DNA of 64,000 bases, from positions 37,885 through 101,884 of IMG/VR virus record IMGVR_UViG_3300040801_005040; one strand, written 5' to 3'. The translations under genes and the position numbers were made by a program. The notes under the pieces were generated by a model. The model saw only the letters and a list, made by a program, of their open reading frames with translations. It ran no database searches and was not told the DNA's origin. Source of the stretch: a virus. Positions 1,946-43,931 of the stretch are shown in pieces (the stretch's first letter is position 1; each line of letters opens with the position of its first letter).

Positions 1946-2839
1946 TTAGTTCTTTATAAATTCAAGATATACAATCAAACCTTTTCCTGGTTCAGTAGAA
2001 CCTACTTGATCTATATCAATATTTACTTTATCATCAAAAATAAAATTAGCATCAGATATAACAGGAGTTGTATTTGAGCCTACAGATGTTTCAGAGCCTG
2101 CATCTATTACTAATTTAGTAGATAAAACATCCCCTGTATTTTTTCTTATTTGTATATCTATATTAGACCCTGTAGGTGCTTGCCATACAGAAGCTCTTAC
2201 AGAATTTAAAGTAGCAGAATAAGGCATCCTAAAATAACCAGCACTATTTCCTACAATAATATTATCCTGTACTCCAGAACAAGCTACTCCAATATAATCA
2301 AAGTTTGTAGCAGAATCTGTAATAAGATAATAGGTGCTAGGATCTTTTACAGCTATAGCATCATAATCTGATTGATTGAGAGCTACTATATTATTAATTT
2401 GTACTGCACTAGCTCCAAGTCCTGTAATATCAGACTCAATCATATTACCTATACGTCCATCAAGATATCCTTTATTAATTATATCATCGTCAGTAACTGT
2501 ACCTCCTTTACGGATTACATATTCAATAGCTCCACCATCAAAAGAAAAAGAAATAGTATTTGAACCAAAAACTACACTTGACTTTGCTATAGGGGATGTT
2601 CCTGCCTCAATAGTAATGTTTGCAGTACCAGTAGGAATAAGTATTTTATTTTCATTAGCTGTAAGCCCTATATTAAAACTAGCTGGAAGTGTAAGACTAC
2701 CAGTAGATTGAAGATAGTTAGCTAAAAGAGCTACTATTTCATCTATTGCTGCTTGCCCATCAGTTGCTGAGAGTCCTGACGTAGTGTTGTCATACTCAAA
2801 GTTCTCTACCTGATTAGCATCAAATTTTGGTTTTGCCAT
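1946..2839 (-). CDS. Tail fibre protein with modules shared with the two large fibres
   Basis: This 297-aa protein is built from parts found elsewhere in the module. Residues about 130-175 (IESDITGLGA..., NQSDYDAIA, STYYLITDS) match a segment of the 669-aa fibre at 5420-7429. The C-terminal 110 residues (FRMPYSATLNSVRASVWQAPTGS through VGSTEPGKGLIVYLEF) match the C-terminus of the 818-aa fibre at 7440-9896. The N-terminus (MAKPKFDANQVENFEYDN) is unique here. The composition is typical of phage fibres. It probably forms part of the distal tail or baseplate. Confidence 0.6.
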   Translation of the reverse strand: MAKPKFDANQVENFEYDNTTSGLSATDGQAAIDEIVALLANYLQSTGSLTLPASFNIGLTANENKILIPTGTANITIEAGTSPIAKSSVVFGSNTISFSFDGGAIEYVIRKGGTVTDDDIINKGYLDGRIGNMIESDITGLGASAVQINNIVALNQSDYDAIAVKDPSTYYLITDSATNFDYIGVACSGVQDNIIVGNSAGYFRMPYSATLNSVRASVWQAPTGSNIDIQIRKNTGDVLSTKLVIDAGSETSVGSNTTPVISDANFIFDDKVNIDIDQVGSTEPGKGLIVYLEFIKN

Positions 2840-2840
2840 T

Positions 2841-4490
2841 TTATTTTATTGCTTTAATTGGTCCTATATACCCTCTGTTAAGTTTATTAGCTCCAAAACT
2901 TAAAGGTTTTTGTGTGTTTAATGAAGGAGGTATTATTACAGTTATTTCTTCACTGTATGATATTTTATTATCTACAGTATTTGCCCAAATTCTAAAATAA
3001 TATGTTGTTCCTGATCTAAGAGAACTAGGATTACTATTTCCCACTACTTGGGAATGAAATGTAAGATAGTTAAACTCTGTTGCAGATTGTTCTGTATAAA
3101 CTCCCGTATTTCTGGAAAACTCTACTCTACCTTGAGCAGGTATATCAAGATTCCAAGAAACTCTAAAAGAGTTGACATCAATTTCATTTACCATTATATT
3201 ACTTATAACTGCAGAAGGTCCTTCTACTATAGTATTACAAGTTAAATTTGGGTCAATAACTATATTTGCACTCTCAAGGGCCCCCCATACTGAAGCAAAT
3301 CCACTTTGATATATATTATTTTCAGATAGTAAAACATTTCCCGTGTATATACCTCCATAGTCATAAACAGTACTTCCACTATTAAAAGTAGTACCACATA
3401 CTGTTACATCAGGCATATATGCACCCCCTGAAAAAAAGGCCATGTCACTACTATCTTTGAAAAGACAATTATTAAATGTTATATGTCCACCCCCAATACT
3501 TGTAGAACCTATAACTCTTCCGTCGTAAGTTCCATCTTTAGCAAAAGTGCAATTATTGTAAGTAACAATTCCTTGATGTGTTACTGTTCCTGAATCGCAA
3601 AATTCTCCTTCTCCATAACATTGACCCGTACCCGTATAGTATTTTACAAAATCCAAATTAGAATTATTTCCATCGGGAGAAGTGAATATAGAATTATTAA
3701 AAGTAACTACTCCACTTGCTCCTTTTATTATTCTTCTTTCAGAGTTATAGAAATTACCATTGTTTATTGTAACCATAGATCCTGAATCAAATAATTGTAT
3801 AGCTTTAGTAGCATCTGTTCCAAAATTTATTTGATAGTAATAATCTGAAGAATCACATCCCCATATATCATGTATTTCAATTCCATCTATATTAACCCTT
3901 AAAGGCTGACTTGGTAGCTCGTACCAATATGTAATTAGTCCTGTAGCAGAACCTGTACCAGAAGTTAAGCTACAAGCGTTTAAAGCTCTTACATCGTGTA
4001 TGTAGATATTTTTTAATTCCCATTCTTCTGTATAAACATTAGGATCATCATAGAGATTTATTCTTAAAGCTATTACTCCTAAAGATACAGTTGGAAACAT
4101 ATCTTTAATTTCCAGACCGTCTATGTTTACATGGGAATTAACTGTAAAAGCTTTTCTTATTGAAAGATTCTGAGAAACATCTACAATTAAATTTTTTATA
4201 TATGTTTTACTTGGACCTGGTGTTGGGCTAGTACTTGCATCAGTTGTTCTTTTTGATACTATAATTCCTTCAGAATCACCCCAGCTTCCTGATGAAGCAA
4301 ATTGAATTGTTGAATTATTAAAGTCAGCATTAGTATTTATATTCCCTCTAAAAAACAATGTTGACGATATTTTATAAGTTAGATTAGGCCCAGAAGTAAG
4401 AACCTCTTCGTTATCTAAAGCATTTTGTAATGCTATAGTATCGTCAGTTATACCATTTCCTACTGCACCATAATCTTGAAAACTTGCCAT
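2841..4490 (-). CDS. Tail spike: pectate-lyase-superfamily beta-helix plus fibronectin type III domain
   Basis: This 549-aa protein starts with the classic tail-spike entry motif FQDYGAVGNGITDDTIALQNAL (residues 3-24 area), the N-cap of Pectate_lyase_3-type right-handed beta-helices. Residues about 50-420 show repeated short strands with Asn ladders, such as NNCTF, FNNCLF, FNNSIF and VCGTTF. Residues about 430-520 form a fibronectin type III-like domain (NSFRVSWNLDIPAQGRVEFS, SGTTYYFRIWA). Inferred role: polysaccharide depolymerase of the tail spike, with the FnIII domain as linker or binding module. It abuts its neighbours (1-2 bp). Active-site acids cannot be assigned from sequence alone. 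Confidence 0.75.
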   Translation of the reverse strand: MASFQDYGAVGNGITDDTIALQNALDNEEVLTSGPNLTYKISSTLFFRGNINTNADFNNSTIQFASSGSWGDSEGIIVSKRTTDASTSPTPGPSKTYIKNLIVDVSQNLSIRKAFTVNSHVNIDGLEIKDMFPTVSLGVIALRINLYDDPNVYTEEWELKNIYIHDVRALNACSLTSGTGSATGLITYWYELPSQPLRVNIDGIEIHDIWGCDSSDYYYQINFGTDATKAIQLFDSGSMVTINNGNFYNSERRIIKGASGVVTFNNSIFTSPDGNNSNLDFVKYYTGTGQCYGEGEFCDSGTVTHQGIVTYNNCTFAKDGTYDGRVIGSTSIGGGHITFNNCLFKDSSDMAFFSGGAYMPDVTVCGTTFNSGSTVYDYGGIYTGNVLLSENNIYQSGFASVWGALESANIVIDPNLTCNTIVEGPSAVISNIMVNEIDVNSFRVSWNLDIPAQGRVEFSRNTGVYTEQSATEFNYLTFHSQVVGNSNPSSLRSGTTYYFRIWANTVDNKISYSEEITVIIPPSLNTQKPLSFGANKLNRGYIGPIKAIK

Positions 4491-10553: not shown

Positions 10554-11873
10554 TTAGGAAAGTGTCGGAATAACTACACCATTGGCGCCATTGATAGCTG
10601 TGTTGAGATCAGCAATCAAAGCGTTTGTTTTAGTGAATGTACCGATATCTTCCTTAACAAAGATAGTAATCTGCTTTTTGGATGCAACTTGCTCATCATC
10701 CCTTCCATAATCCCTGTACTCAAGGCTAACTGCATGGTAGGTAGCATCAAGCTCAGAGTCATAGTGCTCTGGAAAGTTATGAGGATAACCAGCACCACGG
10801 AAAGTGTCTTGCCTGTTACCAAGCAGGTATTCTTCCATGTTGCGTACACTGTATCCATCTCCTTTTGCAGGAGTTCCTCCTGATACGCTGATAACAGGGG
10901 AATCCGCAGGAGTTTCAGCAGTTACAGTAAACAAAAGATTAGTACGGGTTTTCTTGCCAGTTACATAGTAATCAGCCAGCCATCCAGTTTTTTCAGTAAT
11001 GACTACTTGCCATACTGAACCATCAACGCCAGGAGTGGTTTGAGCAACAGTTGCAGTTACACCAGATACTCCGTTTGCACTGAAGGCAAGAGCAGCTTCA
11101 ACCCTTTCAAAGGCAGAAGTAATTGCTATAGCGTTAGTGGTAGGAACAGCAGTGTAATCAGTGTTTGCGTTAATCCAATCTGAAATTTCAGCTGCGAGGG
11201 TAGTAGTAGTACCACCAGCAGTAACAGGAACAAAATAATCAGTTCCGTTAAGAGTAACTTTTACATTGCCATCTTCAGTTGCAACAGCAGTCATTGTAAG
11301 GGTTACAACAGCAGCAGTACCATCGGTGGTGTTTTTATCAAACTTAAACCAACGATTCTGAGGAAGCCTTACAGTAGTTGCATCTTGTTGAGTAAGCAAG
11401 AAGGTACCAGTATCTTGAGGTTGTTCACGAGACCAGTTACGAGCAAGAGACTTGATAAGACCATCAACTATCTTTTCACTATCGGTGTCAAGAGCCTTGT
11501 AAAATGCTTCTTTAATGTAAAAGTCTTCCGCTGAAAGACTGCCAACTCCCTGTACTTCAATTGCAATGCGATAAAGTTCACCTGCAACAGGGGTTCCAAT
11601 AGGAACAGTTACTACTTTAGGAACTGCAGCTACTGCCTTCTGTGAGCTACCATAGGTAACTTTGGAAGGATCCAATTTATACTGTGTAATTCCACCTTTG
11701 AAGTTTTTTACCCCAACCATGAATTCCACTCCGTTTGCAGGAGCAGTACCATCTGCACTAAGCACAAAAGCATCACCATTGGTGGCATTTCGCGCTTCAC
11801 CCATAGTACCATGGTTTGGATAATCCTTTCCAATTAGGACGTTTCTTACGTAATTTTCACCTATTAAGGCCAT
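10554..11873 (-). CDS. Structural protein, probably abundant (head decoration or tail)
   Basis: This 439-aa protein starts ALIGENYVRNVLIGKDYPNHGTMGEARNA. Codon use is cleaner and GC higher than in the fibres, as in the capsid gene, which suggests high expression. Residues about 190-330 are rich in Thr/Ala/Val and look like an inserted Ig-like or beta-sandwich domain (AAVVTLTMTAVATEDGNVKVTLNGTDYF). The flanking parts are mixed. A strong terminator follows. I do not recognise the family. Tail tube/sheath-like or capsid-auxiliary roles are both possible; its place after the connector-type genes slightly favours a tail or neck role. Confidence 0.55.
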   Translation of the reverse strand: MALIGENYVRNVLIGKDYPNHGTMGEARNATNGDAFVLSADGTAPANGVEFMVGVKNFKGGITQYKLDPSKVTYGSSQKAVAAVPKVVTVPIGTPVAGELYRIAIEVQGVGSLSAEDFYIKEAFYKALDTDSEKIVDGLIKSLARNWSREQPQDTGTFLLTQQDATTVRLPQNRWFKFDKNTTDGTAAVVTLTMTAVATEDGNVKVTLNGTDYFVPVTAGGTTTTLAAEISDWINANTDYTAVPTTNAIAITSAFERVEAALAFSANGVSGVTATVAQTTPGVDGSVWQVVITEKTGWLADYYVTGKKTRTNLLFTVTAETPADSPVISVSGGTPAKGDGYSVRNMEEYLLGNRQDTFRGAGYPHNFPEHYDSELDATYHAVSLEYRDYGRDDEQVASKKQITIFVKEDIGTFTKTNALIADLNTAINGANGVVIPTLS

Positions 11874-33793: not shown

Positions 33794-34453
33794 ATGAAAC
33801 CTTTAATCTCAGGAAGTGAAGTCTTCCAACAATTGTCCGATGATCTTAAAGCTAAGATCTCCTCTCTGCCGAAAGAGAAAGTACTTGCTGTTTATATGCG
33901 GAATACATCCACAGATGACAATAAAGTACAAGTAGAATTCGCAGAGAAAATTAACTTGAGTACACAACCTCAAAGTGCCCTTGCTGCATTTAACCCTGGT
34001 GATGAGAGATTCTCATCTGGTGCACGTCGCACCTGGATTACTGCAGACAGGGTGTATGCTGAGAATATGTTTAAGGTATCCATTAAAGATAATGAAGCAT
34101 TTGCTGAAATTGGCCAAGTGCTTAATCCTATCAATGGTGGAACACAAGAGCTGCGTATTCAAGTACGTGAATTCCTTGAGTCTGAAATGACAGACTCTCA
34201 GCGCGAGTATGCTGATAACTACCTGAAAAGGATCCCTTCTACCGGAGCATATTTCTATGCTAAAAATGGTGAAAGGGTGTGTGCAGAAACTCGCCTTGTA
34301 ATTGTCGATAGGGTATGGGATGAGATTGCCAATACATATGTATCTGGTAATCCCGGACATATCCTTATTGAGGGAGAATATAAAACTGCTACTACAACAA
34401 GTGCAGCTTCAATTCTTCAGGCTGCAGGTACCAGCCCTAAATTGGTATCCTAA
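33794..34453 (+). CDS. Probably abundant protein, function unknown
   Basis: This 219-aa protein has clean codon use and higher GC than its neighbours, a strong leader and its own terminator, all signs of high expression. Residues 1-60 read helix-strand (KAKISSLPKEKVLAVYMRN), then mixed sequence (ELRIQVREFLESEMTDSQREYADNYLKRIPSTGAYFY) and a Thr/Ala-rich tail. I do not recognise the family. A nucleic-acid-binding or host-takeover role is possible. Confidence 0.6.
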   Translation: MKPLISGSEVFQQLSDDLKAKISSLPKEKVLAVYMRNTSTDDNKVQVEFAEKINLSTQPQSALAAFNPGDERFSSGARRTWITADRVYAENMFKVSIKDNEAFAEIGQVLNPINGGTQELRIQVREFLESEMTDSQREYADNYLKRIPSTGAYFYAKNGERVCAETRLVIVDRVWDEIANTYVSGNPGHILIEGEYKTATTTSAASILQAAGTSPKLVS

Positions 34454-34491
34454 CATTTCTTTTGACTAGCATTTAATTTTATATATTTGTT

Positions 34492-34521: not shown

Positions 34522-34839
34522 TTATGGGCCCGTATTGGCTTTGACAATGGTACAGGTTTTTCTATATTCAGCCGTGAGAGATAACACGCTAAAACTAAGG
34601 TGAATTAAGTAAATGGAGACATTTCTCAAATTCAGGCGAACATGAAAGTAGTTGATATGATTATCAATGAAGATGTTCAGGTGGCTGCGTAAACTGCCTT
34701 ATTATTTACGCTTAATTTAGGATTAGACACCCTTCAGTGGAGTTTCCTGTTTCTCTAAAAAGCAGGTGGTGGAGCAACTAGTTTTGCCCTAAGCTGTAAT
34801 AAAATATAGATTAATCATATTATTGGACGAGGGTTCGAT

Positions 34840-35508
34840 TAATTATAGTCGACTTAGAAGGTAACTTCTATGACAAAACTGGATGAATTGCTGGAAAGCT
34901 AAGTGTGAAAACATATGCCAATCAGCAGCCAAGCTTACTGGAAGAAGTAAGAAGGTTCAGAGACTAGGGATACTACGGTAAGCCCACAGCGTCCAGCTCC
35001 TATTTATAGGATGATGATATAGTCCGATACTCTTAAGAAATTAGGAGGAGAAAAAGTTATTAATTACTTTTTCTCGTTTTTGTAAAAGTTCTTTGGTGTA
35101 TTTTCCATTTCTTGGAGTTAAAGAATGTAGTTCTTTTAATAATGATATTCTGTGTACTTTTTTTGAATGTTTAGATTTTAGTTTTGATACTATTAATAAA
35201 CATTTTGGAAAATAAGTATATTTTAAATCATAATTATCAGTATGATTTTTTTCTTTAGCTTTTTTCTTAGATATAAATCCTTTTATTTTTAATTCTTTTA
35301 ATATAAAAGATTGGATATCTTCAAGTATGGATTTTTCATTATTGGAAAAATTTAATTGTACAGTTATTTCTTCATTTCTATGATTTTTAATAGCTGTAAT
35401 TGATCCATCAGCATCAAAGAACCCGGATATATAGTTCCAATTCATATTTATAATATAGTTTTGGACTAAGGTATAAATAATACCTATATCCTGCAAAAAT
35501 AACACTTG
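34840..35508 (+). other. Group I intron in the tmRNA T-loop
   Basis: The core elements are all present: P GAATTGCTGGAAAGC (34885-34899), Q CAATCAGCAGCCAAGC (34919-34934), R GGTTCAGAGACTA (34954-34966) and S GATATAGTCC (35016-35025); R and S form P7. P1 is formed by exon TCGAT (34835-34839) with intron GTCGA (34848-34852), placing the required U-G pair at the splice site. The intron ends in G at 35508. Splicing restores a canonical T loop TTCGATT and 5-bp T stem. Borders follow from that restoration and from P1. The region between S and the 3' splice site holds an antisense endonuclease gene. Confidence 0.85.
35041..35445 (-). CDS. LAGLIDADG homing endonuclease, antisense within the intron
   Basis: I choose the start at 35445 (MNWNYISGFFDADGSITAI, 134 aa); the longer frame to 35535 would run out of the intron into the tmRNA exon. 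The YISGFFDADGSI sequence is a clear LAGLIDADG motif (catalytic Asp within DADG), followed by a typical beta-sheet saddle and a KKVHRISLLKELHSL helix near the C-terminus. One motif means it acts as a homodimer. It would cut intron-less tmRNA genes at the T-loop site. It runs opposite to the intron, so splicing and translation are not from the same transcript. Confidence 0.85.
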   Translation of the reverse strand: MNWNYISGFFDADGSITAIKNHRNEEITVQLNFSNNEKSILEDIQSFILKELKIKGFISKKKAKEKNHTDNYDLKYTYFPKCLLIVSKLKSKHSKKVHRISLLKELHSLTPRNGKYTKELLQKREKVINNFFSS

Positions 35509-35533
35509 TCCCTCCGGGTCCACTAAAACTAAC

Positions 35534-35559
35534 AAGGAGCTTCATAGCTCCTTTTTTAT
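35534..35559 (+). terminator. Intrinsic terminator of the tmRNA gene
   Basis: AAGGAGC-TTCATA-GCTCCTT is a 7-bp stem followed by TTTTATTT, 11 bases after the tmRNA 3' end. Confidence 0.85.
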
Positions 35560-35569
35560 TTAACTAAAA

Positions 35570-36052
35570 ATGAAAGTATTAAATATTTACACAGATGGAG
35601 GACACAGAAAAAAGTTAGGGCTAGGAGCCTACGCTTATGTTATTCTGGATAACAATAACCATGTTATTGCAGAGCATGTTAGGGTTATTGAAGAAAAGGA
35701 TGAAAAAATAACCAATAACATTATGGAACTTAAAGCTGTAATAAAAGCTTTAAACTGGGTTAAATCAAATGGATATAGCCCAGAGGATCATAGAATTTAT
35801 GTGTTTACTGATAGTCAGTATGTACAATTGGGTATAACTGAATGGATGTCAGTGTGGATTCGTAAGAATTGGAAAAATGCTGCTGGAAAAGAAGTTGAGA
35901 ACAGGGATTTATGGGAAACTCTTAACAAACTATTCTTCTTTGATTTTAAGTATTTACATATTCAATGGATACAGGGTCATAATGAAAGTAAATGGAATAA
36001 TCTTGTAGATGAACTATGTACTAACGCAATGTTAAGCTATGAATCTACATAA
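35570..36052 (+). CDS. Ribonuclease HI
   Basis: This 160-aa protein removes RNA from RNA-DNA hybrids, for example lagging-strand primers. Catalytic acids are visible: YTDGG (Asp9), MELKAV (Glu53), FTDSQYV (Asp81), and the last Asp in NNLVDELC near residue 148, preceded by WIQGHN, the usual His loop. Length matches the family (about 155 aa). It opens the replication module after the tmRNA terminator and overlaps the next gene by 14 bp. Confidence 0.92.
   Translation: MKVLNIYTDGGHRKKLGLGAYAYVILDNNNHVIAEHVRVIEEKDEKITNNIMELKAVIKALNWVKSNGYSPEDHRIYVFTDSQYVQLGITEWMSVWIRKNWKNAAGKEVENRDLWETLNKLFFFDFKYLHIQWIQGHNESKWNNLVDELCTNAMLSYEST

Positions 36053-41575: not shown

Positions 41576-43931
<2,356 letters not shown>

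Follow-up and report, generated by a model that had tools for sequence, protein, structure and literature searches.

An antisense LAGLIDADG gene within a group I intron that splits the tmRNA gene of a crAss-like phage

What is a group I intron doing in the T-loop of a phage tmRNA gene, and how could the RNA serve the phage when its T arm is split? We analysed this locus in a 64 kb stretch, the window, of a viral record of 101,884 bases. Our best explanation, to which we give a probability of roughly 0.86, is that this crAss-like phage encodes a tmRNA of its own whose T-loop is interrupted by a mobile group I intron, that the intron holds an antisense homing-endonuclease gene, and that the whole is a tmRNA-directed homing element. 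Phage rescue RNAs are already known; here maturation of the RNA would depend on a selfish ribozyme.

The interrupted tmRNA gene

The phage is crAss-like (Crassvirales). Its terminase is about 42% to crAss001 over 95% of the length, its portal and major head proteins match PHROGs, and its auxiliary capsid protein matches crAss_AuxCP (PF25650, E 1.5e-25). A 'tail sheath' PHROG match at 10554-11873 was rejected, as the protein is the crAss auxiliary capsid protein (PF25650). The phage also encodes a GroEL-type chaperonin (42294-43931, + strand; PF00118, PHROG 5725). When the proteins on either side of the tmRNA gene (33794-34453 and 35570-36052) were used as probes of viral contigs, no relatives were found.

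The tmRNA gene occupies 34526-35522 on the + strand, and its T-loop is interrupted as TTCGAT|T (Table 1). An earlier note, made from the letters alone, had proposed a phage tmRNA with an 18-residue tag and a terminator, split in the T-loop by 669 bases at 34839/34840, and had predicted that splicing would restore a 7-nt T-loop and a 5-bp T stem. All of these elements are found. In the tmRNA spliced in silico, 328 nt long, the acceptor halves GGGCCCG and CGGGTCC pair 7/7 including G3·U70, the T stem GAGGG/CCCTC has 5 bp, and the predicted joined loop is TTCGATT, 7 nt. The G3·U70 wobble is a mark of alanine acceptors. Helix 2 is long and joins both ends of the RNA. Folding without constraints gives a minimum-energy structure that contains the acceptor, the T arm and helix 2; its energy of -87 kcal/mol (z -1.8 against shuffles) is weak evidence by itself. 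Downstream of the 5' exon there is one site, 35510, at which a 3' exon completes the full set of 12 pairs in T stem and acceptor, and such a site is present in 97 of 20,000 shuffles (0.5%). The identification as a phage tmRNA is thus borne out by the 12 diagnostic pairs with G3·U70, by the fold and by homologous exons in cultured phages. A chance match at this locus was ruled out by the intron score (E 1e-25), the 12 exon pairs and the 28 loci with the same link to tmRNA described below.

An uninterrupted tag frame closes with VAA, in agreement with the hydrophobic-AA type of degron. An ANM start and a long tag are common to the window and other phages, for example L018, L020-L022, L027 and phi14:2. 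TTTG-N17-TATATTTG is the Bacteroidota-type promoter consensus. It matches four times in the 64 kb on both strands, against 3.2 expected, and only the position of one match, just 5' of the tmRNA gene, is notable.

Table 1. Features of the interrupted tmRNA locus, with positions in the window
Feature	Position	Strand	Basis or detail
Candidate Bacteroidota-type promoter, TTTG-N17-TATATTTG	34461..34489	+	exact match
tmRNA 5' exon	34526..34839	+	sequence; homologous exons in other phages
Helix 2 and tag frame, both within the 5' exon	34526..34839	+	
Acceptor, 5' half	34526-34532	+	GGGCCCG, then TATTGGCTTTGACA
Tag reading frame, ANMKVVDMIINEDVQVAA-stop	34636..34692	+	sequence; 18 codons
T stem, 5' half	34829-34833	+	GAGGG
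Loop TTCGAT, end of 5' exon	34834-34839	+	
Group I intron, 669 nt, ending in omega-G	34840..35508	+	Rfam RF00028; boundary rule
Catalytic core, P3-P9, with P7.1/P7.2-like insert	34840..35047	+	RF00028; sequence
Internal guide GUCGA	34848-34852	+	base-pairs to UCGAU; the splice-site pair is U·G
P2 hairpin	34856-34869	+	
LAGLIDADG homing-endonuclease gene, 134 aa, MNWNYISGFFDADG...	35041..35445	-	PF14528; AlphaFold; Foldseek
tmRNA 3' exon	35509..35522	+	loop T, T stem CCCTC, acceptor CGGGTCC, A73
Intrinsic terminator of the tmRNA gene	35534..35560	+	

Standard detectors are blind to this gene. RF00023 reported no tmRNA in the raw window sequence, and ARAGORN found none at the locus, raw or spliced. 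These negatives weigh little, because ARAGORN also misses L011, L013 and L040, all of which lie above the RF00023 cut-off, and because uninterrupted homologues pass RF00023 (58 bits for Flavobacterium phage FpV4, 87 bits for Cellulophaga phage Calle_1). Many phage tmRNAs are missed by standard searches. The same blindness would be expected if the window tmRNA were a decaying or non-functional relic, kept only to house the intron and its endonuclease. Such decay would also agree with the 3' end, where ACTA stands in place of an encoded CCA, and with at least one phage tmRNA, that of Kehishuvirus 'tikkala', that looks broken at the T arm. We nevertheless consider a relic quite improbable: the acceptor, T and helix 2 pairs are all intact, the tag frame is open to its VAA end, promoter- and terminator-like signals lie on either side of the gene, and long ANM-type tags are kept in divergent phages. 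Tag changes among close relatives are partly synonymous, in numbers too small for a rate test.

The intron and its antisense gene

The insertion matches the whole RF00028 model (1-253) at 34831-35047 on the + strand with 103.4 bits (E 9.9e-26); this is the search on the raw sequence that the earlier note had proposed as a check of its group I assignment. The conserved core and the U-G splice pair in P1, which it had described, are both present. P1 has 5 bp, and the -1U/omega-G rule places the boundaries at GAGGG-TTCGAT|34840-35508|T-CCCTC, in agreement with the suggested insertion site. P10, between the 3' exon and the guide, has only 1 bp in the position-7 introns of the window, L038 and L039, a point against our reading, and 5-7 bp in several relatives with introns at other sites.

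The intron also holds, towards its 3' end and antisense to the tmRNA, a LAGLIDADG gene that the first reading of the sequence had overlooked. Its product is assigned to PF14528 (E 5e-9, over the cut-off). The AlphaFold model has a mean pLDDT of 92.9, and with this predicted fold Foldseek matched I-OnuI and I-CreI with TM-scores up to 0.74 on the query, although identity is only about 12-22% over the aligned part. The single motif in 134 aa suggests that the enzyme would act as a homodimer, like I-CreI. The window endonuclease was also sought in annotated phage records, and none was found there. The GFFDADG core of the motif is invariant in 26 of 26 aligned family members, indicating continued selection on the endonuclease. 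In a promoter scan of the antisense genes, the exact -7 motif occurs in 6 of 24 cases against 2.7 expected, a slight signal.

Just past P9, at 35048-35075 (+), a perfect 10-bp hairpin is followed by GTTTTTG and resembles a terminator on the sense strand. Together with the antisense gene, whose transcript would be able to base-pair with the intron while this is still part of the tmRNA precursor, this hairpin raises the idea that splicing is a switch, with the phage tmRNA becoming active at a time set by the antisense transcript or by the rate of splicing. We regard a switch as very unlikely, since no conserved regulatory element was shown and relatives with sense or external genes, or with no intron, manage without it.

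Introns of this kind are known. The first report of an intron-form tmRNA was that of Williams 2002, as cited in a survey (PMC11915505) which catalogues 883 tmRNAs with T-loop group I introns, most of them at position 7, the commonest of four subsites; the reservation in the earlier note that the class may not be new was therefore justified. According to the same survey, introns are up to 700 bp long, and a LAGLIDADG gene is present in 36 of the 883, in some after P9. The survey as a whole, all forms of tmRNA taken together, counts 79 phage tmRNAs. The window locus is, by its -1U, omega-G and loop site, an intron-form tmRNA of position 7, and it shares with the surveyed forms the gene, the loop, the boundary rule and a LAGLIDADG gene after P9. 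Unlike the forms described in the survey text, it resides in a crAss-like phage and has an antisense endonuclease gene and a long tag of phage type; the orientation of endonuclease genes is not discussed in that text (PMC11915505). It is thus a known kind of intron in a new setting, a crAss-like phage tmRNA. A partial literature search found nothing on introns in crAss-like tmRNAs, and we make no claim of priority.

An antisense arrangement has a precedent in Didymium nuclear rDNA, where group I introns carry an antisense homing-endonuclease gene in the P9 region and an internal promoter has been proposed (PMC9548176). As here, the gene is opposite to the intron strand and in the P9 region. 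The Didymium enzymes are of the His-Cys type in eukaryotic rDNA, whereas the present family is LAGLIDADG, is found in phage and bacterial tmRNA genes and includes sense versions. How antisense endonuclease genes are expressed in rDNA introns has been called an intriguing, unsolved question (PMC9548176).

An endonuclease family linked to the tmRNA T-arm

With the window endonuclease as query we assembled a family of the window, 25 viral loci and 4 bacterial chromosomal loci, full-length or nearly so, each read by hand and by script. Twenty-eight of the 30 members are found within a tmRNA gene or immediately next to one; 24 of these belong to phages and 4 to chromosomes of Bacteroidota. The two others are L015, cut by the contig end, and L025, in which a position-8 intron splits the T-arm but the locus contains no matching 5' end. 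The endonuclease family thus follows the T-arm of tmRNA genes in phages and bacteria alike.

Among the members read, whenever the endonuclease gene is inside an intron the intron is in the T-loop. Position 7, by the -1U/omega-G rule, is used in the window, in L028 and in L038 and L039 from Flavobacteriaceae MAGs; position 8 in L001 (and L025, if real); position 2 in L002; and position 3 in the remaining introns, L014 being ambiguous because position 3 would require omega-A. All four T-loop subsites known from the survey (PMC11915505) are therefore occupied. Seventeen resolved introns hold the gene in antisense and six in sense orientation (the latter L007, L009, L012, L029, L036, L037). In five loci it is outside, downstream and antisense, with an intron in L002, L003 and L014 and with none in L011 and L013. 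L040, where a remnant of the endonuclease gene follows an intron-free tmRNA, was left out of the 30. The bacterial loci L038 and L039 are flanked by metabolic genes, contain the only high-scoring tmRNA of each genome and encode the usual GESNYALAA tag.

The following scheme is inferred from the families involved; it takes in splicing and trans-translation of the RNA as well as expression of the antisense gene and cleavage by its product. The intron sits between T-loop bases 6 and 7, and the precursor would have no T arm until it is removed; self-splicing would restore the T arm ahead of alanylation and SmpB binding. The spliced tmRNA would then be served by the host alanyl-tRNA synthetase and by host SmpB, because neither the phage record nor 23 related viral records, which may be incomplete, yielded an SmpB gene. 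The single-motif LAGLIDADG enzyme most likely cuts T-arm DNA that lacks the intron, in the tmRNA genes of other phages or of hosts, and repair of the cut would copy the intron, or the endonuclease gene, into the target.

Empty alleles, probable exchange and an apparently permuted relative

Close relatives carry empty and occupied alleles side by side: the intron-free L135 and L113 against L018, L020 and L021, L076 against L014, and cr106_1 against cr128_1. The tags of L135 and L113 are ANMNKVFSLLGEEVAVAA and ANMNKVFSLLREEVAVAA, respectively. L018 and L021 have a tag identical to that of L135, yet bear an intron at position 3, and L020 after splicing reproduces the T-arm of L135 exactly. The guide tracks the exon, GACCC standing opposite GGGTT and GACTC opposite GAGTT.

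The three trees, which are short, with moderate supports and some weak branches, place the window differently. By its exons it groups with crAss phage tmRNAs; by its intron core, with L038 and L039, the two chromosomal tmRNAs from Flavobacteriaceae (support 0.92); and by its endonuclease, with L001 and L028 (0.89) and not with L038 and L039. Because the trees disagree and because empty and occupied alleles occur in close relatives, the introns and, separately, the endonuclease genes appear to have been exchanged horizontally. Vertical inheritance of a tolerated intron, with the antisense endonuclease a passenger that has no current role in mobility, would accommodate the finding that intron and endonuclease are separable: in cr128_1 an intron of this kind holds an antisense ORF that is not LAGLIDADG, and L002, L003 and L014 have their endonuclease gene outside the intron. 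The tree conflict, the neighbouring empty and occupied alleles and the motif core, whose invariance in all 26 aligned members points to continued selection, make this alternative unlikely. We read the element of the window as a tmRNA-directed homing element that is probably exchanged among phages and hosts.

A wider proposal we put forward only tentatively, at somewhat less than even odds. The endonuclease family may be specialised for the tmRNA T-arm and may drive an exchange of introns in which crAss-like phages, other phages and Bacteroidota hosts all take part, at all four subsites and from genes in either orientation or external to the intron. Intron-bearing phages might gain an edge by cutting the intron-free tmRNA genes of rivals or hosts, and L028 would represent the same element in a two-piece permuted tmRNA.

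Several related phages have tmRNAs whose intact T-loop region can be aligned to the window family. Those of Calle_1 (annotated by the depositors) and cr106_1 are annotated; those of FpV4 (L213 1501-1913) and phi14:2 (L215 1463-1931), both cultured phages, are unannotated, and the phi14:2 gene is overlaid by annotated short hypothetical ORFs. In all four the T-loop is uninterrupted, unlike that of the window. The tag of phi14:2 is long and of the ANM type, as in the window. Homing, expression of antisense endonuclease genes and the role of phage tmRNA in infection could be studied at the bench in cultured relatives whose site is intact, such as phi14:2, grown on Cellulophaga baltica, and Calle_1. 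The relative of cr106_1, the gut crAss-like GenBank record cr128_1 (L216 1200-2516; MT774392 7824-9140), has an unannotated tmRNA with a position-3 intron of 869 nt. The antisense ORF in this intron is a different one without the LAGLIDADG signature; it looks HNH-like by eye, and Pfam finds only a zinc finger. In 'tikkala' (L218 1190-1520), the tmRNA homologue diverges from its relative right past the T-loop, with T stem and acceptor unpaired; it is possibly broken at the T-loop site.

L028, a 97 kb contig with a crAss-like terminase, differs in the order of its parts. On the reverse strand, the acceptor piece (approximately 2764-3469, intron included) comes first, with a position-7 T-loop group I intron that contains an antisense LAGLIDADG gene. 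A 46-aa ORF follows, and then the coding piece from 3749 onward. This 5' piece, GGGGCCTAATTGGTTTTGACG..., starts 292 nt past the start of the 3' half of the T stem and has the open frame GESEMMQLLRAAA-stop. Helix 2 and an acceptor with 7/7 pairs, G3·U70 among them, join the two pieces; none of 200 shuffles pairs equally well. L028 thus resembles a permuted phage tmRNA made of two pieces and bearing an intron in addition. The survey table lists intron forms and permuted forms with no joint class (PMC11915505), and the combination in L028 would be absent from it. A methylophage paper mentions a permuted tmRNA (PMC9004378). A search for relatives of L028 through its neighbour gene returned only L028 itself.

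L011 and L013 have the T-loop AGTCGGAG, which we considered as an escape allele tied to the endonuclease and rejected: it occurs in 43 phage DNA stretches and is beside an endonuclease in only 2. These stretches (L170-L212) form a lineage of uninterrupted tmRNAs in which this non-canonical T-loop has 8 nt, and most carry a conserved 21-aa tag such as GNVLNKMETLGLLRGSEVTVA. On the phage contig of L014, a GOLLD RNA (RF02032, 328 bits; 1800-2214) lies about 0.8 kb from the endonuclease gene that stands beside the intron-bearing tmRNA.
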